A DNA stretch of 64,000 nt from Planctomycetota bacterium (GTDB lineage: Bacteria; Planctomycetota; Phycisphaerae; Phycisphaerales; UBA1924): NCBI GenBank assembly GCA_020831805.1, contig JAFIFX010000001.1, forward strand, positions 1 through 64,000. The letters run 5' to 3'. The translations under genes were made by a program, and so were the position numbers. Positions 27,262-36,661 of this stretch are shown one piece after another. Position 1 is the stretch's first letter, and the number at the start of each line of letters is the position of its first letter. The notes beneath the pieces are model-generated. The model was given only the letters and a program-made list of their open reading frames with translations, was not told where the DNA came from and ran no database searches.

Positions 27262-28023
27262 ATGAAGAGCAAGATTTCGATGTGCTGCGCGGGTCTGATC
27301 GCCGCCTCGGCGGGCCTCGCGAGCGCGGATGTGCTGTGGGACAACGGGTCGATGGTGACCCACGCCGGCGCTGGCGCCGGTGGTGCCGATGTGAGCATGG
27401 CGTCGGCCGTTCCCAACACGGCCGGATCCAATGTGACCGCGTCCCTCCTTCGCGGTGACGACTTCAGCGTCGGCGGCCCGGGCTGGATCATCTCGAACAT
27501 CCAGATGTTCGCCTATGACACGAACAACGCCAATCCGCGTTGGTCCGATGCCCAGATCTCGATCCGCGAGAACAACGGCGGCAGCGTGGGCGATGTCGTC
27601 GCGAGCGCCGCGGCGACCTGGGAGTACTCGGGCATCAACCGGGTGTTCAACGGTGAAGCCAACCTGTCGAACACCGCCCGGCAGATCCAGACCCTGACCG
27701 CGGACTTCGGCGGCCTGGTCCTCGGCGCCGGCGATTACTGGGTGACGATCGGCATCACCAACACGGCCGGCGTGAACAGCTGGATGTCGTTCGTGATGGA
27801 CAACAACCCGGACGACGCCAACAACCCGATCACCCGCGTCGGCAACTCGATCATCAGCACCAACAGTGGCGAAACCTGGGCTGCCGGGAATGTCACGACC
27901 GGTGACTGGAACCAGTCCCCCGAGTTGCCGTTCCTGATCAACGGCACCATCGTTCCCGCTCCCGGCGCCATGGCCCTGCTCGGTCTCGGCGGCCTGATGG
28001 CCGGCCGTCGTCGCCGCGCCTGA
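27262..28023 (+). CDS. Secreted protein with exosortase-type (PEP-CTERM-like) sorting signal
   Basis: 253 residues from ATG 27262, preceded by GAGAGAGGA; the frame is open further upstream without a start signal. A signal peptide (1-22, GLASA) leads to a beta-rich body with many Asn/Gly/Asp residues. The C-terminus is VPAPGAMALLGLGGLMAGRRRR: a VPAP box, one membrane helix and an Arg cluster. Exosortases cleave such tails and link the protein to surface polysaccharide. The exosortase encoded at 63051-63941 could process it. The function of the body is unknown. Confidence 0.85.
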   Translation: MKSKISMCCAGLIAASAGLASADVLWDNGSMVTHAGAGAGGADVSMASAVPNTAGSNVTASLLRGDDFSVGGPGWIISNIQMFAYDTNNANPRWSDAQISIRENNGGSVGDVVASAAATWEYSGINRVFNGEANLSNTARQIQTLTADFGGLVLGAGDYWVTIGITNTAGVNSWMSFVMDNNPDDANNPITRVGNSIISTNSGETWAAGNVTTGDWNQSPELPFLINGTIVPAPGAMALLGLGGLMAGRRRRA

Positions 28024-28050
28024 ACGACGCGTTCGAGTGAATCCGCTTGC

Positions 28051-28078
28051 GGCGGGGACTTCGGTCCCCGCCGTTTTT
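28051..28078 (+). terminator. Rho-independent terminator of the secreted-protein gene
   Basis: GGCGGGGAC (28051-28059), tetraloop TTCG, GTCCCCGCC (28064-28072), then GTTTTT. The stem is perfect with a stable UUCG-type loop. It separates the upstream gene from the lysine operon, which therefore needs its own promoter. Confidence 0.93.
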
Positions 28079-28108: not shown

Positions 28109-28136
28109 TTGACTTGGACGCCGGGTGTGGTAGCAT
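28109..28136 (+). promoter_or_regulatory. Putative promoter of the lysine operon
   Basis: TTGACT (28109-28114) and TAGCAT (28131-28136) are spaced by 16 bases. Transcription would begin near 28143, giving a very short leader before the leader-peptide ORF at 28154. It lies between a strong terminator and the attenuator, where a promoter is required. Confidence 0.5.
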
Positions 28137-28153
28137 CCGCCGAGCCACGATTC

Positions 28154-28243
28154 ATGATGACCGCCACGACCAAAAAAGCCGCCAAAGCCAAAGACACCTC
28201 GGGTGTCCGGGCTGTGATGGTGGCTGTGGTCGGAGCGGGCTAA
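28154..28243 (+). CDS. Putative lysine leader peptide (attenuator ORF)
   Basis: A 29-codon ORF starting ATGATG, with four lysine codons in seven (residues 7, 8, 11 and 13: KKAAKAK). All four are AAA, whereas nearby genes mostly use AAG. It ends VVGAG. The ORF is followed by a terminator (28275-28303) and contains the sequence that can open that terminator (28200-28211). Ribosome stalling at the lysine codons when Lys-tRNA is scarce would leave that sequence free. The ribosome site is weak and the ORF is nearly leaderless. It is probably a cis-acting control peptide rather than a functional protein. Confidence 0.6.
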   Translation: MMTATTKKAAKAKDTSGVRAVMVAVVGAG

Positions 28244-28289
28244 GTACCCGAGCACCGAGACCCGAAGCACACCGCGCCCCGGACACCCG
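28200..28289 (+). promoter_or_regulatory. Antiterminator pairing of the lysine-operon attenuator
   Basis: CGGGTGTCCGGG (28200-28211, inside the leader ORF just after the lysine codons) is the exact complement of CCCGGACACCCG (28278-28289), the left arm and loop of the terminator. The 12-bp pairing excludes the terminator. A third option, CTCGGGT (28198-28204) with ACCCGAG (28246-28252, just after the stop codon), would sequester the first segment and favour termination. These are the mutually exclusive folds expected of translation-coupled attenuation. Confidence 0.65.
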
Positions 28290-28303
28290 TCCGGGGCGTT
28301 TTT
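28275..28303 (+). terminator. Attenuator terminator upstream of lysW
   Basis: CGCCCCGGAC (28275-28284), loop ACCC, GTCCGGGGCG (28289-28298), then TTTTT and a second T-run (28306-28309). The 10-bp stem is perfect. It stands between the operon promoter and lysW (28360), so it must be bypassed for operon expression. Confidence 0.9.
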
Positions 28304-28359
28304 CGTTTTGGACCTGTTTGTGAACATCCGTCGGAACCCAACCACAAGGAGATCTCGTC

Positions 28360-28542
28360 ATGTCGACCGCCACCATCGAAGCCGTCTGTCCTGAATGCGA
28401 CGCCGCCGTCCGCTTCGACCGCAGCCCCCTGAACGGGCAGGTCGCCCGATGCGCGGACTGCGGGGCCGAGTTGGAAGTGACCAGCCTGAGCCCCCTGACC
28501 CTGGAGCTGGCGCCGGAGGTCGAGGAGGACTGGGGCGAGTAA
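28360..28542 (+). CDS. lysW: LysW amino-group carrier protein
   Basis: 60 residues, the normal length. Zinc-ribbon cysteines are CPEC (10-13) and CADC (31-34); the acidic tail ends EDWGE, the hallmark of LysW, whose terminal Glu is joined to the amino group of the substrate. It carries alpha-aminoadipate (lysine route) or glutamate (arginine/ornithine route) through the LysX-LysK steps. AAGGAGAT lies eight bases before the ATG. It is the first gene of the operon, 57 bases after the attenuator. Confidence 0.97.
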   Translation: MSTATIEAVCPECDAAVRFDRSPLNGQVARCADCGAELEVTSLSPLTLELAPEVEEDWGE

Positions 28543-28598: not shown

Positions 28599-29474
28599 AT
28601 GCGCATCGCGTTGACATACACCCGGCTCCGGGTCGAGGAAAGACTGTTGCTGGACGCGTTCGCCGCCATCGGCGTCGAGGCGGTGCCGGTCGATCTGCGG
28701 GAGGCCGTGTTCGACCTGGACAGCCCGGGGGACTGGGCGGGGTACGACATGGTCGTGGACCGGTCGGTGAGCCTGACCAGTTCGCTGACCAGCGTGCGGA
28801 TCCTGGAGGGGCACGGGATCCGGTGCATGAACCCGGCCCGGGCGATCGAGGCCTGCTCGGACAAGCTGATGACCTCGATCGCGTTGGCCCGGGCAGGGGT
28901 GGCGCAGCCGCGGGTGCTGGTGGGGACCAGCGCCGAGTCGGGGCTGGCAGCGGTTGAGGGGATCGGGTACCCGGCGGTGCTCAAGCCGACGGTGGGGTCA
29001 TGGGGGCGGCTGGTGGCCCGGGTCAACGACCGCGACGCGGCCGAGGCCGTGATCGAGCACCGGGACACCCTCGGGTCGGTCGGCCAAGGCGTGTTCTATG
29101 TGCAGGAGCACATCGACAAGCCGGGGCGGGACATCCGCGTGTTCGTCGTGGGCGGCGAGCCCATCGCGGCCATCGCCCGCGCCAGCGCCCACTGGGTGAC
29201 CAACACGGCCCGTGGGGCGAAGGCGTCGGGGCTGGAGGTCACCGAGGAACTCGGGGGGCTGTGCCGGCGGGCCGCGGCGGCGGTCGGGGCGGATGTGGTC
29301 GCCGTCGATGTGCTCGAATGCCCGCGCCGGGGCTACCTCGTCAACGAGCTGAACCACTCGATGGAGTTTCGCAACAGCATCGACACCACCGGGGTGGACA
29401 TCCCGGGCCGGGTCGCGCGGCACGCGGTGCGGGTCGCCGAGGCCGCCCGGTCTGGTGAGGCGGTGTCGGCGTGA
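28599..29474 (+). CDS. lysX: LysX, LysW-alpha-aminoadipate ligase (ATP-grasp)
   Basis: 291 residues. The N-terminus MRIALTYTRLRVEERLLLDAF is nearly the family consensus (the start is chosen for it, with GAGG seven bases upstream). The ATP-grasp core is seen in YPAVLKPTVGSWGR (about 126-140) and the C-terminal NELNHSMEFRNS segment, which binds the LysW tail and substrate. It joins the LysW terminal Glu to the amino group of alpha-aminoadipate with ATP. It overlaps lysY by four bases. Preference for aminoadipate over glutamate cannot be decided by eye. Confidence 0.93.
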   Translation: MRIALTYTRLRVEERLLLDAFAAIGVEAVPVDLREAVFDLDSPGDWAGYDMVVDRSVSLTSSLTSVRILEGHGIRCMNPARAIEACSDKLMTSIALARAGVAQPRVLVGTSAESGLAAVEGIGYPAVLKPTVGSWGRLVARVNDRDAAEAVIEHRDTLGSVGQGVFYVQEHIDKPGRDIRVFVVGGEPIAAIARASAHWVTNTARGAKASGLEVTEELGGLCRRAAAAVGADVVAVDVLECPRRGYLVNELNHSMEFRNSIDTTGVDIPGRVARHAVRVAEAARSGEAVSA

Positions 29475-30499
29475 CGGTGCGGGCGTCGATCGTCGGCGGC
29501 AGCGGGTACACGGGCGGCGAGCTGCTGCGGCTGCTGCTCGGTCACCCGGGGGTGGAAGTGGCGCAGGTGACCTCCCGGGCGCTGGCGACACAGCCGGTGC
29601 ACCGATCGCACCCGAACCTGCGGGGGCACACGGAGCTGGCCTTCGTGAACCCGCAGGAGATGGCTCCCTGCGATGTGCTGTTCCTGTGCATGCCGCACGG
29701 GAAGGCGGCGGGGGACATCGGACGGTGGATGGAACTCGCGCCGCTGGTGATCGATCTTTCGGCGGATTTTCGTTTGAACGACGGAGAGCGGTACCAGCGA
29801 TGGTACGGAGAGACGCATCCCAACCCCGGAGCGCTGGCCGAGGCCGTGTACGGGCTGCCCGAGGTGTCCAGGCAACGGCTGCCCGGGTCTCGGCTGGTCT
29901 CCGGGGTGGGGTGCAACGCGACGGCGATGACGCTGGCGCTCTTGCCGCTGGCGCGGGCGGGGCTGATCCGGCGGGCGATCTGCGATGTGAAGGTCGGATC
30001 GTCGGAGGCCGGGGCCGAGCCGAGCGCGGGCTCGCACCACCCGGTGCGGGCCCGGACGGCGCGGACCTACAGCGCGTCGGGGCACCGGCACCTCGGCGAG
30101 GTGGCGCAATCGCTGGGCGACCTCGATGTCGACGCGACGGTGACGGCGATCGACATGGTGCGGGGCGTGCTCTGCACGACCCATGTCGAGCCGACGCGGC
30201 CGGTGGAGATGAAGGAGCTGTGGAAGCTGTACCGCGGGGCGTACGCCGATGAGCCGTTCGTGCGGCTGGTCGCGGACCGGAGCGGGCCGAACCGGTTCCC
30301 GGATCCCCGGGTGCTGGTGGGGTCCAACCACGCGGATGTCGGGTTCGCCGTGGACGAGCGGTCGGGGCGGATCATCGCGCTCTGCGCGATCGACAACCTG
30401 GTGAAGGGGGCGGCGGGGTCGGCGGTGCAGTCGATGAATGTCGCCCTGGGACGCAACGAAACCGAAGGACTGTGGTTCCCGGGTCTGCACCCGGCGTGA
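29471..30499 (+). CDS. lysY: LysY, LysW-aminoadipyl-6-phosphate reductase (ArgC family)
   Basis: 342 residues from GTG 29471 (overlap with lysX). NADPH fold GGSGYTGGELLRLL (9-22), catalytic Cys148 in SGVGCNATAM and the later His-containing TYSASGHRHLGEV segment match the ArgC/LysY family. It reduces the acyl-phosphate made by LysZ to the semialdehyde. The order Y before Z is the usual LysW-operon order. All main motifs are intact. Confidence 0.94.
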   Translation: MTVRASIVGGSGYTGGELLRLLLGHPGVEVAQVTSRALATQPVHRSHPNLRGHTELAFVNPQEMAPCDVLFLCMPHGKAAGDIGRWMELAPLVIDLSADFRLNDGERYQRWYGETHPNPGALAEAVYGLPEVSRQRLPGSRLVSGVGCNATAMTLALLPLARAGLIRRAICDVKVGSSEAGAEPSAGSHHPVRARTARTYSASGHRHLGEVAQSLGDLDVDATVTAIDMVRGVLCTTHVEPTRPVEMKELWKLYRGAYADEPFVRLVADRSGPNRFPDPRVLVGSNHADVGFAVDERSGRIIALCAIDNLVKGAAGSAVQSMNVALGRNETEGLWFPGLHPA

Positions 30500-30509
30500 G
30501 GAGCGAGCG

Positions 30510-31337
30510 ATGACGACGGTGGTGATCAAGATCGGCGGCGGCGAAGGGATCGACCTGGGGCCGATCGCGGGGCAGTTCGCGGAGCTGGTGCGGTCGGGTG
30601 TGCGGGCGGTGCTGGTCCACGGGGGGTCGCACGAGACGAATGTGCTCTCGGAGGCGCTCGGGCATCCGGCCCGGACCATCACCAGTCCCAACGGGCACAC
30701 ATCACGCCGCACCGACCGGCGGACGCTCGAGATCTTCGAGATGATCTACTGCGGGAAGATCAACAAGGGGATCGTCGAGCAACTCCGCGGGCTGGGGGTC
30801 GATGCGGTCGGGCTGAGCGGGATCGACGCGGGGATCTGGACGGGGTCGCGGAAGACGGCCATCCGGGCGGTCGAGGACGGGCAGACGGTGATCATCCGCG
30901 ACGACCTGTCCGGCCGGGTGGAGTCGGTGGACGCGGGGTTCCTCAACATGCTGCTCGACGCCGGACGGGTGCCGGTGCTCACGCCGCCGGCGATCACGCC
31001 GGAGGGGGTGGCGATCAATGTCGATGCGGACCGGGCGGCGGCGGCGACCGCGGCCGCGCTCGGAGCGGACGAGCTGCTGCTGCTTTCGAATGTGCGGGGG
31101 CTGCTGCGGGATGTGGCCGACCCGGGATCGCTGATCCGGGAGGTGAACTCGGAGTCGCTGGAGATCGCGCGTGCGGCGGCCAAGGGGCGGATGAAGAATA
31201 AGGTGCTGGCGGCCGAGGAGGCCCTGACGGGCGGGGTCCCACGGGTGGTGATCGGTTCCGCACTCGGTGACGACGCGATCGGGCGTGCCCGTGCCGGGGA
31301 GGGCACCGTGTTCTTGGGCGCGGGGGTGACGGCGTGA
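30510..31337 (+). CDS. lysZ: LysZ, LysW-aminoadipate kinase (ArgB family)
   Basis: 275 residues from ATG 30510 (GAGGAGCGAGCG just upstream; the frame is open further left but without a start signal). Amino-acid-kinase fold: VVIKIGGGEGID at the N-terminus, VLVHGGSHETN (about 34-45) and NVDADRAAAATAAAL for nucleotide binding. It phosphorylates the side-chain carboxylate of LysW-bound aminoadipate. It lies ten bases after lysY and overlaps lysK by four bases. Confidence 0.94.
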   Translation: MTTVVIKIGGGEGIDLGPIAGQFAELVRSGVRAVLVHGGSHETNVLSEALGHPARTITSPNGHTSRRTDRRTLEIFEMIYCGKINKGIVEQLRGLGVDAVGLSGIDAGIWTGSRKTAIRAVEDGQTVIIRDDLSGRVESVDAGFLNMLLDAGRVPVLTPPAITPEGVAINVDADRAAAATAAALGADELLLLSNVRGLLRDVADPGSLIREVNSESLEIARAAAKGRMKNKVLAAEEALTGGVPRVVIGSALGDDAIGRARAGEGTVFLGAGVTA

Positions 31338-32437
31338 GTGTCACGAACTCCCAGAGCGTGGACGCGGAGACCGCCGTGCGGGTGCTGCACGACCTCGTCG
31401 CGACGCCGAGCGTGTCGGGCTCGGAGGCGGCGGCGGTGCGGGTGTTCGTGCGCCATGCGGCCGCGATGGGGTTCGAGACGGAGATCGACGCCGCGGGGAA
31501 CGGGCTCGCGCACCGGGGGGCCTCTGCGGCGGGAGCGGCCGTCCATATCGTGCTGCTCGGACACATCGACACCGTGCCGGGGCACATCCCGGTGCGGATC
31601 GAGGATGGGGTGCTGCACGGGCGGGGGAGTGTGGACGCGAAGGGGCCGCTGGCGGCGATGCTCGTCGGGGCGGCCAACGCCGAACTGCCGGCAGGGGTCC
31701 GGGTCACCGTGGCGGGCGCGGTCGGGGAGGAGACGGCCGACTCGCCCGGGGCCCGGCACCTCGCCGGCCAGTTCCGGCCCGACGCGTGCATCATCGGCGA
31801 ACCGAGCGGGTGGGACGGAGTGACGCTGGGGTACAAAGGGCGGCTGATCGGTCGGCTCGTGTGCGAGCGGTCATGCGCCCACACGGCCGGGCCGGGCCTG
31901 TCGGCGGCGGATGAGGTGCTGGCGTGGTGGTGGCGGATTCTGGCGGATGTCGAGTCATTCAATGGGGATCGGGCGCGGGTGTTCGAGCGGATCCAGGCGT
32001 CGGTGCGGGGGCTTTCGGGCGGTTCGGACGGTCTGACGGAAGCCGCGGTGCTGGAGGCGGGATTCCGCCTGCCTCCGGGGGTGGATCCGCACGAGCTTGC
32101 GCAGCGGCTGGAAGCCCTGGCCGGCGATGGTTGCGGCGTGACATGGCGGGGCCACGAGGTCGCCCACGCGACGGATCGCAACGACCCGGTGGTCCGGGCG
32201 CTCAGCGGCGCGATCCGTTCGCTCGGCGCGACTCCGAGGCCCAAGCTGAAGACCGGGACGGCGGATCTGAATGTGGTCGGGCCGGTGTGGGGATGCCCGA
32301 TCGCGGCGTACGGGCCGGGGGACAGCTCGCTGGATCACACGCCGGAGGAACGGCTGGACATCGCCGAGTTCGCAAGGTCGGTCGGTGTGCTTCAGCGGGG
32401 GATGGAGTTGCTCGCGGCGGAGCTGGGCGGAGCGTGA
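31334..32437 (+). CDS. lysK: LysK, LysW-lysine hydrolase (M20 family)
   Basis: 367 residues from GTG 31334. M20-type metal ligands appear in GHIDTVPGH (about 76-84), GRGSVDAKGPLAAM and GEETADSPGARHL. It releases lysine (or ornithine) from LysW, the last step. The operon lacks lysJ, the aminotransferase for the step between LysY and LysK, which must be encoded elsewhere. The stop lies directly against the stop of the convergent peptide synthetase, with no gap for separate terminators. Confidence 0.92.
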   Translation: MSVTNSQSVDAETAVRVLHDLVATPSVSGSEAAAVRVFVRHAAAMGFETEIDAAGNGLAHRGASAAGAAVHIVLLGHIDTVPGHIPVRIEDGVLHGRGSVDAKGPLAAMLVGAANAELPAGVRVTVAGAVGEETADSPGARHLAGQFRPDACIIGEPSGWDGVTLGYKGRLIGRLVCERSCAHTAGPGLSAADEVLAWWWRILADVESFNGDRARVFERIQASVRGLSGGSDGLTEAAVLEAGFRLPPGVDPHELAQRLEALAGDGCGVTWRGHEVAHATDRNDPVVRALSGAIRSLGATPRPKLKTGTADLNVVGPVWGCPIAAYGPGDSSLDHTPEERLDIAEFARSVGVLQRGMELLAAELGGA

Positions 32438-35400
32438 TCAGGCGGTTTCGGCCGCGTCGGCGATGGCGCGGGCGACATCGAACGCCGCGTCGGTCTTGAT
32501 CAGGTTCATGTGGCTGGCCTGGATGGATACCCTGGACGGTTCCTGGGTCAACCATTCACGCCAGCCGTTCGCGCCGTCGTCCTTGAGTGAATACATCCAA
32601 TCGGGGCGGTAGCCCTGGATGACGAGCACCTTGCCGTGGTACTTCGCGGAGGGGACATAATCCCGGACGACGCGGAGATTCGCGAAGGTCAGCCTGCGGA
32701 CTTCCGGCAGTTCGTCATACCCATCGCCGCGTTTGAACATTTTCCTCAATCGACGCCTGACGGCATCGACCCGCTTGGCGATGTACTTGCCCCGCTGGTC
32801 ACCCGGCATGGTCAGGATGTTCCGGACATGAACGCCGATCGGCACGGGCTTGAACTTGACCGGGTACTTCTTGAGCAGGTGAGCGTCCACGATGACCAGC
32901 AGGCGGGGGGCCATCCCTTCCTCCTGCAGGCGGACCGCGAGTTCGTAGCCGAGGATGCCGCCGAGGCTGTACCCGATGAATGTGCTGGCGCCGGGATCAA
33001 ACCCGGGCCTGATCGCTTCGTGGAAGTAGCGGACCATGTCCGGGAGCGACTCGAACGGCTTGCGGTCCGGGGTGGTGCCCGGATAGAGGGCGGCGCGGCA
33101 TGTCCAATCTTCGCCGAGGCCGGTAACGAGACGGCGCATGCTCAAGATGTCCCCGGTCACGCCGGGGAGGATCCAGCCGGTGTGCCTGCGGCCCCCCTGG
33201 TTGATCTGGAGGAACGGTTCCTGGCTCGGATGCGTGGCGTGCTCGCGCATGCGGCGGGCCAGGCTGCGCGGGGTCGCGTTGCGGAACATCGAGGCGGTCG
33301 CCAGGTCGGTCGGGTGCGACTGGCGGATGATCGAGAACGCCCGGACCGCCCTGAGCGAATCGCCTCCCCTGGCGAAGAAGTCGTCGTCGGGGCCGAGGTC
33401 AGGGTCGGAGAGGACATCACGGAAGACATCCACGATGGTCCACATCACATGCTCGGTCGCGGGGTCGGCGGCCTCCGCTTGGTCTGAAGCGTGGCTGGAA
33501 GGATCCTTCTGAACGCCTCCCTGGTGGGAACTGACCCGAGGTGGTTCCGGGCTGGTGATCTGGTCGCGGATGAAGGCGAGCAAGGATCGTGCCTCCGGAA
33601 CCGACCCGGACTCAAGCCAGTCCGCGTCGCGTGCGGTGATGACCAGCCTGGCGGTCGAAGCGTGGCGGTACAAGGTGCAGAGCAGGTCGAACCGGGCCAG
33701 GCCGTGGTCGGCTTCCTCCCAGACCGGCTCGAAGAGACCGTACGGACCTAATCCGGGCGCGAGCGGGGCCCGGTCGATAATGTTGAAGTAGACATTGGTG
33801 ATCGGGGTCGATCGATCGTGCCCGCCATCCGCGGAATGACGGACCAGGCGGTCGAACGGGACGGGCCCGTGATTCAACGCGCTGCGGACCGCCTCGGCGG
33901 TCAGCATCACGCGATCGCGGAAGGAATCCCGCTGCAGATCGAGCAGAACCGGGACGGTTTCCACGAAGAATCCCACCGCGTTCTCGAAGGGCCCATCGTC
34001 CCGGGTTGACACCGCAAGACCGATCGCCGGTTTGTTCGTCCCGCAATGCGTCGGTCCCGCCCAGTCCGCGAAAAGGGAGAGCCAGACGGCGTGCGATGTG
34101 ACGCCGAACTTTTCAGCACACTGGCTGACGGCACGAACCAGATCGGCCGGGATGTCGACGGCGGTGGTCACGGCAGGGCGATTCTCCACGTGGGCTTCCG
34201 CGATGCGGCCCCGGGTGGGCTGCCGATCGCGGAACGGTGCGGCGGCACGCCGGGCCTGTTCTTCCATGTTCTCGGAATCCTGCTTCCCATGCAGCCAGAC
34301 CGCATGGGCCGGCTGACCTGGGCCGGGATCGGGCAGGTTCGGAGCCGAACGCGTCCTGCGGGCCTCGTACAGCAGTGCGAGATCGCGGAACACCACCTCC
34401 ATGGACCACGCATCCGAGACGATGTGGTGCATGACCAGCAGGCCTTGGCCCGTTTGGTTCGAGATGATCAGGCGGGTCAAGGGAGGATTGCCGAGATCGA
34501 ATGGTCTGATGACCAGCGATCGAACCATGTCCGGATCATCCAACGGTCCTTCATGCCATTCGATCCCGGCTTCGACCGTGGCCAGCAGGGTCGCCATCGG
34601 CTCGGTTACGGAAGGATCGGGGAACGCGGTCCGGAGGGCGGGGTGCCGGTCGTGGAGGTCCTGCCAGGCGCCCTGAAGATCGGCGCGATCGGGTGCTCCC
34701 CGAAGCCGGAAGCGGTACGCGATGTTGTAGGCGGCGCTATCCGGGTCGATGTGCTGGATCGCCCACAGGCGACACTGCGACGGCGACATGTGGACCAAGC
34801 CGGGCCGGGCCTGCTGGAACTTGAGTTCTGCGCTCGGTTGATCGGCACGGGTTTCGATCACGGAGGCCAATGTCACAAGATCCTTTGCGGCCAGCACTTC
34901 GGGGACCGATACCTCCACGCCGAAGCGGTCGCGGATCCGGACGCGGAGCATCATCGCCCGCAGGGAGTTGCCGCCGCACTGGGTGAAAGACCGATCGGTG
35001 GATGCCACGGGATCGGGCAGCACCTCAGAGCAGACTGTCAGCAACGCGCGCTCCGTCTCGGTCGTGGGCGGCCTGGCTCGGTGCTCGCCGGCTTTGGAAT
35101 CGAGGCGATCGACTGAGGCCGTAACAACTTCGCGCAACTCAGAGCGGTCGACCTTGCCGTTGCGGTTGATGGGCAGTTCTCGGATCGGCACGATCGGAGC
35201 AGGCATCATGGCGCTGGTCAAACGCCGTGCGATCCGCAACTCGAACGCGTCGGGATCGAACGCTCCGGGGTCAACGGGAACGATGCAGGCCGCAACCCGT
35301 GCGGCGGTGCCGGAGCCGATCACCACGCTCGCCGCGGCCTTGACCGCGGGATCATCCGCAAGCACCGCGTCGATCTCGCCCAGCTCGATCCGCTGCCCAC

Positions 35401-36661
35401 GCACCTTGACCTGGTCATCGATGCGGCCCAGATACGCGATCGCTCCATCGGGAAGCCTGCGGACCAGGTCCCCCGACTTGTACAACCGCTCACCCGTCTT
35501 TGGATCGGAGAGGAACTTGGCCGCGGTCAGCGCCGGATCCTTCAGGTATCCCCTCGCAAGCCCGACACCGCCGATGATCAGCTCGCCTGTTTCTCCGTCC
35601 GGGACGGTGCGGCCGGAATCGTCCGTGATGCGGAGCGTCATGCGGTTGAGCGCGACGCCGATCGGCACGATCGGGGGATCAGCCGGACACGGCCGCGGGA
35701 TTTGGTGCGTGGTGGTCAGGGCGGTGCACTCGGTCGGTCCATAGGCGTTGTAGAATGTCGCGTTCGGGAGCCGCTCCTGGGCCAGGCGGATAAAACGGGG
35801 ATCGGCCGGCTCGCCGCAGACACCGATGACCGGGATCCGCTCGAACGCGCCCGGGTCCGCCTCGAACAGCGCACGGAACAGGCTGAAGGACACGCAGACC
35901 GCGTTGAGCCCCTCATGCTCGGCATAGTGGCGGACCACCTCGGGCGTGAGCACATCATCGGAAGAGATCAGCAGCTTCGAGCCGTGCAGGAGCGGGGTAT
36001 AGATCTCGATGGTGGACAGGTCGAAGGAGAGCGGACCGCCATAGAGGAAGTTCAGCTCCGGACCGAACGGCATGTAGTCCTGGCCGTGGACCAGCCGGAC
36101 AACGCCCGCGTGCTCGATCATGGCCCCCTTGGGCTGCCCGGTGGAGCCGGATGTGTACATGATGTAGGCGAGATTGGCGGGGAAGATCGGGAGCTTCGGA
36201 TTGGCCTCATCGCGGCCGCGGCCATCGTGCGGATCGATCCGCAGGGGCACCTCGTCCAGGATCTCCGGAAGATACCCCGGGGCGGCGACCGCGAAACGGC
36301 AGGACGCGTCCCGAAGGATCGCACGCAGCCGATCGGGCGGCTGATTGGCCACGATCGGAACATACGCCCCGCCGGCTTTCAGCACCCCGAGCACGCCGGC
36401 GACATGGGCCACCGACTTCGGCACGGCCAGCGCGACCGGATCCTCGGTCCGCACGCCCGCGGCGATCAGGTCCGAAGCGATCGCGTTCGCCCATGCGTTC
36501 AGCTCGGCGTAGGTGGCCTTCTCCTGCCCGCAAACAACGGCCGTGCTGTCTGAGTACTGATCGACGACGGATTCAAAGACCGCGTGCACGGCCATCCCGA
36601 AGACGCCATCGGCTTCCGCATGCGCTCCGACGGGATGGGGCTTGTGCTGCTCCGTGCTCAT
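32438..36661 (-). CDS. Nonribosomal peptide synthetase, domain order A-T-C-T-TE
   Basis: 1407 residues. Adenylation domain about 25-510 (YTSGSTGQPKG at 169-179; NAYGPTE; YKSGDLVRRLPDG), carrier 1 with GGNSL (Ser566), condensation about 620-1030 with HHIVSDAW (745-752), carrier 2 with GGDSL (Ser1101), thioesterase about 1155-1400 with GYSLGG (Ser1232). The second module has no adenylation domain, so carrier 2 must be loaded in trans or by the one A domain. A rough hand alignment gives pocket residues D-L-I-C-G-C-A-A-L, with no match I recognise. It is the last gene of the - strand glycan operon, 26 bases after the sugar dehydrogenase. Confidence 0.93.
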   Translation of the reverse strand: MSTEQHKPHPVGAHAEADGVFGMAVHAVFESVVDQYSDSTAVVCGQEKATYAELNAWANAIASDLIAAGVRTEDPVALAVPKSVAHVAGVLGVLKAGGAYVPIVANQPPDRLRAILRDASCRFAVAAPGYLPEILDEVPLRIDPHDGRGRDEANPKLPIFPANLAYIMYTSGSTGQPKGAMIEHAGVVRLVHGQDYMPFGPELNFLYGGPLSFDLSTIEIYTPLLHGSKLLISSDDVLTPEVVRHYAEHEGLNAVCVSFSLFRALFEADPGAFERIPVIGVCGEPADPRFIRLAQERLPNATFYNAYGPTECTALTTTHQIPRPCPADPPIVPIGVALNRMTLRITDDSGRTVPDGETGELIIGGVGLARGYLKDPALTAAKFLSDPKTGERLYKSGDLVRRLPDGAIAYLGRIDDQVKVRGQRIELGEIDAVLADDPAVKAAASVVIGSGTAARVAACIVPVDPGAFDPDAFELRIARRLTSAMMPAPIVPIRELPINRNGKVDRSELREVVTASVDRLDSKAGEHRARPPTTETERALLTVCSEVLPDPVASTDRSFTQCGGNSLRAMMLRVRIRDRFGVEVSVPEVLAAKDLVTLASVIETRADQPSAELKFQQARPGLVHMSPSQCRLWAIQHIDPDSAAYNIAYRFRLRGAPDRADLQGAWQDLHDRHPALRTAFPDPSVTEPMATLLATVEAGIEWHEGPLDDPDMVRSLVIRPFDLGNPPLTRLIISNQTGQGLLVMHHIVSDAWSMEVVFRDLALLYEARRTRSAPNLPDPGPGQPAHAVWLHGKQDSENMEEQARRAAAPFRDRQPTRGRIAEAHVENRPAVTTAVDIPADLVRAVSQCAEKFGVTSHAVWLSLFADWAGPTHCGTNKPAIGLAVSTRDDGPFENAVGFFVETVPVLLDLQRDSFRDRVMLTAEAVRSALNHGPVPFDRLVRHSADGGHDRSTPITNVYFNIIDRAPLAPGLGPYGLFEPVWEEADHGLARFDLLCTLYRHASTARLVITARDADWLESGSVPEARSLLAFIRDQITSPEPPRVSSHQGGVQKDPSSHASDQAEAADPATEHVMWTIVDVFRDVLSDPDLGPDDDFFARGGDSLRAVRAFSIIRQSHPTDLATASMFRNATPRSLARRMREHATHPSQEPFLQINQGGRRHTGWILPGVTGDILSMRRLVTGLGEDWTCRAALYPGTTPDRKPFESLPDMVRYFHEAIRPGFDPGASTFIGYSLGGILGYELAVRLQEEGMAPRLLVIVDAHLLKKYPVKFKPVPIGVHVRNILTMPGDQRGKYIAKRVDAVRRRLRKMFKRGDGYDELPEVRRLTFANLRVVRDYVPSAKYHGKVLVIQGYRPDWMYSLKDDGANGWREWLTQEPSRVSIQASHMNLIKTDAAFDVARAIADAAETA

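Follow-up and report, generated by a model that had tools for sequence, protein, structure and literature searches.

The window, by which we mean the whole 64-kb stretch of DNA analysed, contains a LysW operon preceded by a promoter-like sequence, a short ORF rich in lysine codons and a terminator. Is this arrangement a switch that reads the supply of lysine, or a coincidence of its parts? We regard it as highly probable that it is a ribosome-mediated transcription attenuator, which responds to charged lysyl-tRNA and governs the lysine operon lysWXYZK.

The leader and the operon in the window

The leader consists of the following elements.

28109-28114 and 28131-28136, forward strand: promoter-like sequence (sequence and scan), with -35 TTGACT, a 16-nt spacer, -10 TAGCAT, and TG before the -10
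28154-28243, forward strand: leader peptide ORF, MMTATTKKAAKAKDTSGVRAVMVAVVGAG, 29 codons plus the stop TAA at 28241-28243
28172-28177, 28184-28186 and 28190-28192, forward strand: control codons, Lys AAA at codons 7 and 8, 11, and 13, read from the sequence
28193-28198, forward strand: segment 1, GACACC, pairing with GGTGTC at 28202-28207 (the start of segment 2) as an anti-antiterminator hairpin
28202-28211, forward strand: segment 2, GGTGTCCGGG, left arm of the antiterminator, pairing with segment 3
28278-28287, forward strand: segment 3, CCCGGACACC, common to the antiterminator and the terminator
28274-28303, forward strand: intrinsic terminator, stem 28274-28284/28289-28299, loop 28285-28288, T tract to 28303

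A first-pass annotation of this DNA had proposed the promoter TTGACT/TAGCAT and the 29-codon ORF with AAA at positions 7, 8, 11 and 13, and all are present in the sequence. The terminator and its T tract, also claimed there, stand as well. We read the stem as 11 pairs (28274-28299), 9 of them GC, with a loop of 4. Likewise, the 12-nt complement CGGGTGTCCGGG between 28200-28211 and 28278-28289 is exact. A third pairing, 28198-28204 with 28246-28252, had been put forward as favouring termination. This 7-bp complement is exact too, but it was not found as a conserved element. Its place is taken by the hairpin 28193-28198/28202-28207, the conserved antagonist of the antiterminator, which that annotation had missed.

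Some of these parts are uncommon in the window. Among 811 short ORFs of the 64 kb, the leader alone has at least four AAA within 7 codons, from either ATG. The window has 7 exact 12-mer inverted pairs separated by 15-120 nt, which lie at 3 places; about 0.8 would be expected. Because of the rarity of these two features, the coincidence of all the leader parts is not due to chance. The scan gave 3 promoter-like sites in 7.5 kb, this promoter among them, against an expectation of 0.3.

The ORF starts with a tandem ATG-ATG (28154 and, in frame, 28157), 17 nt past the -10 hexamer, and has no Shine-Dalgarno sequence. Upstream of homologous leaders, the pattern TTGAC-N15-18-xAxxxT occurs in 63 of 87, compared with 1.3% of random windows. 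The ATG lies no more than 12 nt past the -10 hexamer in 35 of these 63, the commonest gap is 7-10 nt, and a Shine-Dalgarno sequence is usually absent from the 63. With the ATG so close to the -10 and usually without a Shine-Dalgarno, the leader mRNA is probably leaderless or nearly so. The leader peptide of the Sinorhizobium trpL attenuator is leaderless: its start codon coincides with or adjoins the 5' end of the transcript, as is probably the case here too. However, that system belongs to tryptophan and to alphaproteobacteria.

A second strong terminator (28049-28074) ends the upstream gene (27262-28023) and parts it from the leader transcript. The C terminus of that gene product, PAPGAMALLGLGGLMAGRRRRA, is PEP-CTERM-like by eye.

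The genes after the leader were assigned by NCBIfam profile scores, and lysX was also aligned to solved LysX/ArgX.

28346-28351, forward strand: Shine-Dalgarno AAGGAG of lysW, by direct reading
28360-28542, forward strand: lysW, amino-group carrier protein, C-terminal EDWGE (TIGR01206, 65 bits, cut-off 53)
28599-29474, forward strand: lysX, LysW ligase with the LysX-type signature MEFRNSIDT (TIGR02144, 315 bits, cut-off 276)
29471-30499, forward strand: lysY, ArgC family reductase (TIGR01850, 350 bits)
30501-31337, forward strand: lysZ, [LysW]-aminoadipate kinase (NF010659, 341 bits, cut-off 223)
31334-32437, forward strand: lysK, [LysW]-lysine hydrolase (NF003367, 401 bits, cut-off 363)

These profiles bear out the LysW operon (lysW, lysX, argC/lysY, lysZ, lysK) of the first-pass annotation. 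Convergent to lysK, on the reverse strand, lies a 1407-aa non-ribosomal peptide synthetase-like ORF (32438-36661).

LysW systems can serve lysine or arginine; in haloarchaea, arginine is made by an ArgW pathway (PMC10433800). The same attenuator could then precede an operon that makes ornithine/arginine from glutamate on LysW, and the Lys codons would report a non-end-product. The absence of homocitrate synthase and homoaconitase matches in G000, the window's genome, and likewise in several relatives, favours this possibility, as does the haloarchaeal precedent. Even so, we find it improbable, and not only because the leader codons are those of lysine. G000 has its own arginine locus on another contig (G000:C20, L208), with N-acetylornithine carbamoyltransferase, argG, an argE-like gene and argB/NAGS. 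A second argB is present in all 10 LysX-positive family members checked, mostly beside the carbamoyltransferase, whereas LysX-negative members have one or none. In the alignment, the window LysX (HWVTNTARGA...MEFRNSIDT) resembles Thermus LysX (MEFKNSVHT), with which it shares the NS signature, and differs from Sulfolobus ArgX (PEFKGFMVA), which has GF. Finally, LysA exceeds its cut-off in 3 of 17 LysX-positive genomes versus 29 of 44 LysX-negative ones. Given the LysX signature, the separate arginine locus, the second argB and the LysA distribution, the operon serves lysine on the evidence of the sequences.

The source of aminoadipate is less plain. We rejected a canonical homocitrate synthase in all LysX-positive genomes, since only G008 has one over the cut-off. 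G000 also has LysA, which is unusual for a carrier of the lysW operon. With LysA present and no match to homocitrate synthase or homoaconitase, the need for the operon in G000 is only partly explained.

Conservation and covariation of the leader in Phycisphaerales

The window belongs to a Phycisphaerales genome, whose closest named relatives are MAGs of Phycisphaerales/Phycisphaeraceae. LysX is present in 91 of 163 genomes of the window's family, and only rarely in the rest of the class. In the approximately 89 Phycisphaerales loci with enough upstream DNA, the arrangement before lysW is that of the window, with a promoter, a Lys-rich short ORF and a terminator in this order; the short ORF is present at every one of them, and a GC-rich terminator lies between it and lysW in nearly all. 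Examples of leader ORFs from relatives are MTATTKKAAKAKDTSGVRAV, MTFLTKKSVKAKDASGVRAV, MLTRTLKTTVKAKDAKSVRAF and MNFAQSKKSMKAKDAKASGL. Five loci that an AAA-only filter had missed also have the leader, with fewer codons or with AAG. Four loci were left out, being truncated or without a recognisable lysW upstream. At the more distant f19 LysW loci (L068 and L069), no Lys leader was found on reading. Judged by sequence comparison, this conservation in relatives settles that the leader arrangement is not due to chance. Conservation in relatives was the test that the first-pass annotation had set for refutation, and its proposal survived: the ORF and its Lys codons are kept in essentially every relative with the operon.

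The leaders have on average 4.2 Lys codons, with AAA:AAG at 351:21 (94% AAA). Compared with this, the predicted genes of the window have 80:372 (18% AAA). In the alignment A1, of 37 sequences, the AAA columns are invariant or nearly so.

The compensatory stem changes that had been asked for are present in both the terminator and the antiterminator helices. The consensus of A1 is GCGTCCGGG for segment 2 and CCCGGACGC for segment 3. Helix 2:3 shows standard pairs in 90.2% of the cells, and 6 of its 9 pairs have changed on both sides. None of 500 shuffles reached the observed level of covariation, and sliding the partners by 1-3 columns lowers the pairing to 20-55%. In the terminator, both partners have changed in 8 of 10 pairs. 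Hairpin 1:2 is paired in 81.8% of the cells, although its covariation is weaker than for the other helices. A clear case of compensation is found in L010, where GTCCAAGG stands opposite CCCTTGGAT.

We also exchanged leaders and terminators among 41 representatives with less than 70% similarity. Native combinations of leader and terminator arm pair more strongly (-19.1 kcal/mol) than exchanged ones (-15.9 kcal/mol; permutation p<=5e-5), a difference from which relatedness is not fully removed. When the leaders were shuffled, z averaged -1.9 over 85 loci, with the same reservation about relatedness. In the more divergent half of the family, some members show helix 2:3 less clearly (for example L012, L017 and L086, with shuffle p>0.4).

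Since the ORF is conserved in all the relatives, it might encode a functional small lysine-rich protein, to which the RNA pairing would be secondary. Peptide length and sequence vary outside the Lys cluster, however, and the C-terminal part keeps to the RNA pairing even where the frame changes. In L007 and L047, 1 nt is missing before segment 2 and the peptide reads ASG instead of SVR, so the RNA sequence is kept though the peptide frame changes. The element also recurs before a second lysine-related cluster, as described below. A small protein is, in our judgement, extremely unlikely as the main function.

A terminator with an alternative structure could likewise be governed by a T-box or by a metabolite-binding riboswitch, for lysine or another ligand; lysine riboswitches govern lysine genes in other phyla. 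The Rfam scan of the leader returned sub-threshold chance matches only and no known riboswitch or leader family, with none above the gathering score for the lysine riboswitch (RF00168) and T-box models. Nor does the alignment show a conserved unpaired core like that of an aptamer; only the Lys codons and helices 1-4 are conserved. This explanation has next to no probability. The leader resembles the lysine riboswitch (L-box) in controlling lysine genes at the RNA level by termination. However, the L-box is a ligand-binding aptamer with no peptide, and no L-box match occurs here. The attenuator would provide RNA-level control of lysine without a riboswitch.

Four genome loci of genus g90 (L246, L247, L248 and L251) have paralogous Lys-rich leader ORFs with terminators, for example MNMTLKQFKSKQSKGIKHARAIVLALNGWV. 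A nitrilase-family gene is alongside in at least 2 cases, and the downstream genes differ.

Predicted folding and the proposed switch

The leader was folded with a thermodynamic model. A ribosome was placed at each codon, with footprint edges of 10-16 nt, and the free RNA was folded. In the window, antitermination has a predicted probability of 0.8-0.99 for most placements of the A site from codon 7 to codon 13, and of almost zero once the ribosome is past codon 14 or has reached the stop. The terminator has a probability of about 0.9-0.99 before codon 6, after codon 14, at the stop or without a ribosome (0.99 in this last case, with hairpin 1:2 at 0.995). Averaged over all the loci, the sequestration of arm 3 is 0.81 with the ribosome at the best Lys codon, versus 0.31 at the stop. 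The folding of alternative structures, which the first-pass annotation had called for, predicts read-through only for a stall at codons ~7-13, the Lys stretch. This predicted behaviour is that of a classical attenuator with default termination.

Termination by default in the model would also suit a constitutive upstream ORF and terminator that only insulate or damp lysW, with no sensing of lysine. The extreme conservation of the Lys AAA codons, the mutually exclusive covarying pairings and the coincidence of the antitermination window with the Lys codons make such a device very unlikely.

Several properties expected of ribosome-mediated leader-peptide attenuators come together at this locus. 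An intrinsic terminator stands before the first gene, in nearly all relatives and with covariation. The antiterminator shares the 5' arm of that terminator, and the codon cluster corresponds to the end product (Lys codons, operon assigned to lysine). In the folding model, and only there, a stall frees the antiterminator and passage restores the terminator. From anatomy, conservation, covariation, codon bias and predicted folding, we infer the stalling, the termination efficiency and the response to lysine. The comparison strongly supports the earlier reading of a lysine attenuator, with lysine starvation and read-through themselves deduced in this way. The leader and its mutually exclusive hairpins almost certainly turn the LysW genes on only under lysine shortage.

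In the proposed switch, transcription would start near 28143, and the leader peptide would be translated from a near-leaderless 5' end. With plentiful lysine, the ribosome would pass the AAA codons and cover or clear segments 1 and 2. Hairpin 1:2 could then form, and terminator 3:4 (28274-28299) would halt the RNA polymerase before lysW. With lysyl-tRNA in short supply, the ribosome would stall at codons 7-13 and mask segment 1 (28193-28198). Segment 2 (28202-28211) would then be available to pair with segment 3 (28278-28287), so that the terminator would not form and the operon would be transcribed. For an untranslated leader, the predicted default is hairpin 1:2 together with the terminator.

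Attenuation by a leader peptide is a known kind of regulation. The his, thr, leu and trp attenuators of Proteobacteria share the four-segment logic, with helices 1:2, 2:3 and 3:4 and an intrinsic terminator. Unlike them, the leader of the window precedes another operon and has a Lys cluster in place of the His/Thr/Leu codons. Its control codons are almost only AAA in a high-GC genome, and its start is near-leaderless, with no Shine-Dalgarno. The first-pass annotation knew of no leader-peptide attenuator for LysW-type lysine synthesis. This is probably wrong, because one is said to have been described for the lysine cluster of Thermus thermophilus by Tsubouchi and colleagues in the J Biol Chem in 2005. 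That leader, which we take to lie before hcs rather than lysW, reportedly resembles the present one in placing a control-codon peptide before LysW-pathway lysine genes and in attenuating transcription. The present leader differs in its phylum, in its position before lysW and in its conservation with covariation across a whole family. In the open literature searched, we found no description of an attenuator in Planctomycetota or for LysW. A survey of Actinobacteria predicted candidate attenuators comparatively, as leader peptides with terminators outside Proteobacteria as here, and none was for lysine operons (PMC1262725). By comparative support, the leader is among the best-supported ribosome-mediated attenuators in Planctomycetota. 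Its most interesting extensions are the regulon and the tandem forms.

A second cluster under the leader and leaders in other phyla

The leader, conserved family-wide, can serve as a search image and helps to trace missing steps of the pathway. We ran R2, a covariance model of the leader, over the family. The matches above 60 bits lie before lysW operons, except for 2 on short contigs or at contig ends and another two at G104:C11 and G105:C3. At the last two the leader precedes a cluster as follows.

G104:C11 (L242) and G105:C3 (L243), after the leader: genes for a citrate-synthase/citryl-CoA-lyase-like protein, an HD protein, a fused homoaconitase, a homoisocitrate-dehydrogenase-like protein and MmgE/PrpD

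The fused homoaconitase scores 672 bits (cut-off 530). The citrate-synthase-like/homoaconitase cluster also follows lysK inside the operon of G057 (L137), and the same gene order is present in G015 (L134). In G034 (L142), a separate copy of the cluster stands behind a divergent Lys-rich leader and a terminator of its own. Related but distant citrate-synthase-like loci (32-39%) have no such leader. The search image finds a second cluster, a plausible source of alpha-aminoadipate by way of an unusual homocitrate synthase. We infer a citrate-synthase-family enzyme with this predicted activity.

Elsewhere R2 gave matches of 24-43 bits. Several of these (L244, L245 and L252-L255) are the 3' ends of atpD or other genes with an ordinary terminator, and were rejected. 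For this reason, the R2 E-values of ~1e-8 are no evidence.

The operon of G057, on a contig of Phycisphaerae isolate 4_bin.8, belongs to another family (f6), and its LysX is 73% identical. This suggests a horizontal transfer together with the leader.

Outside Phycisphaerales, 14 of 57 lysW loci, mostly of Chloroflexota, have a short ORF with at least 4 Lys in 7 codons and then a terminator; the controls gave 2 and 0 of 1014 windows. With a little less than even confidence, we propose that attenuation by a Lys leader is general for LysW lysine synthesis across phyla (single in Phycisphaerales, often in tandem in Chloroflexota, and in Thermus). In the same tentative proposal, the Phycisphaerales regulon would reveal a non-canonical branch to alpha-aminoadipate, with a short protein of the citrate-synthase/citryl-CoA-lyase family in place of the usual homocitrate synthase.

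On inspection, at least 5 loci (L268, L294, L309, L314 and L326) have two leader and terminator units in tandem, and L317, L319 and L325 have similar, less certain ones. Such tandem Lys leaders in Chloroflexota may be a design that makes the response steeper or graded, which is open to testing. Their Lys codon is mostly AAG.
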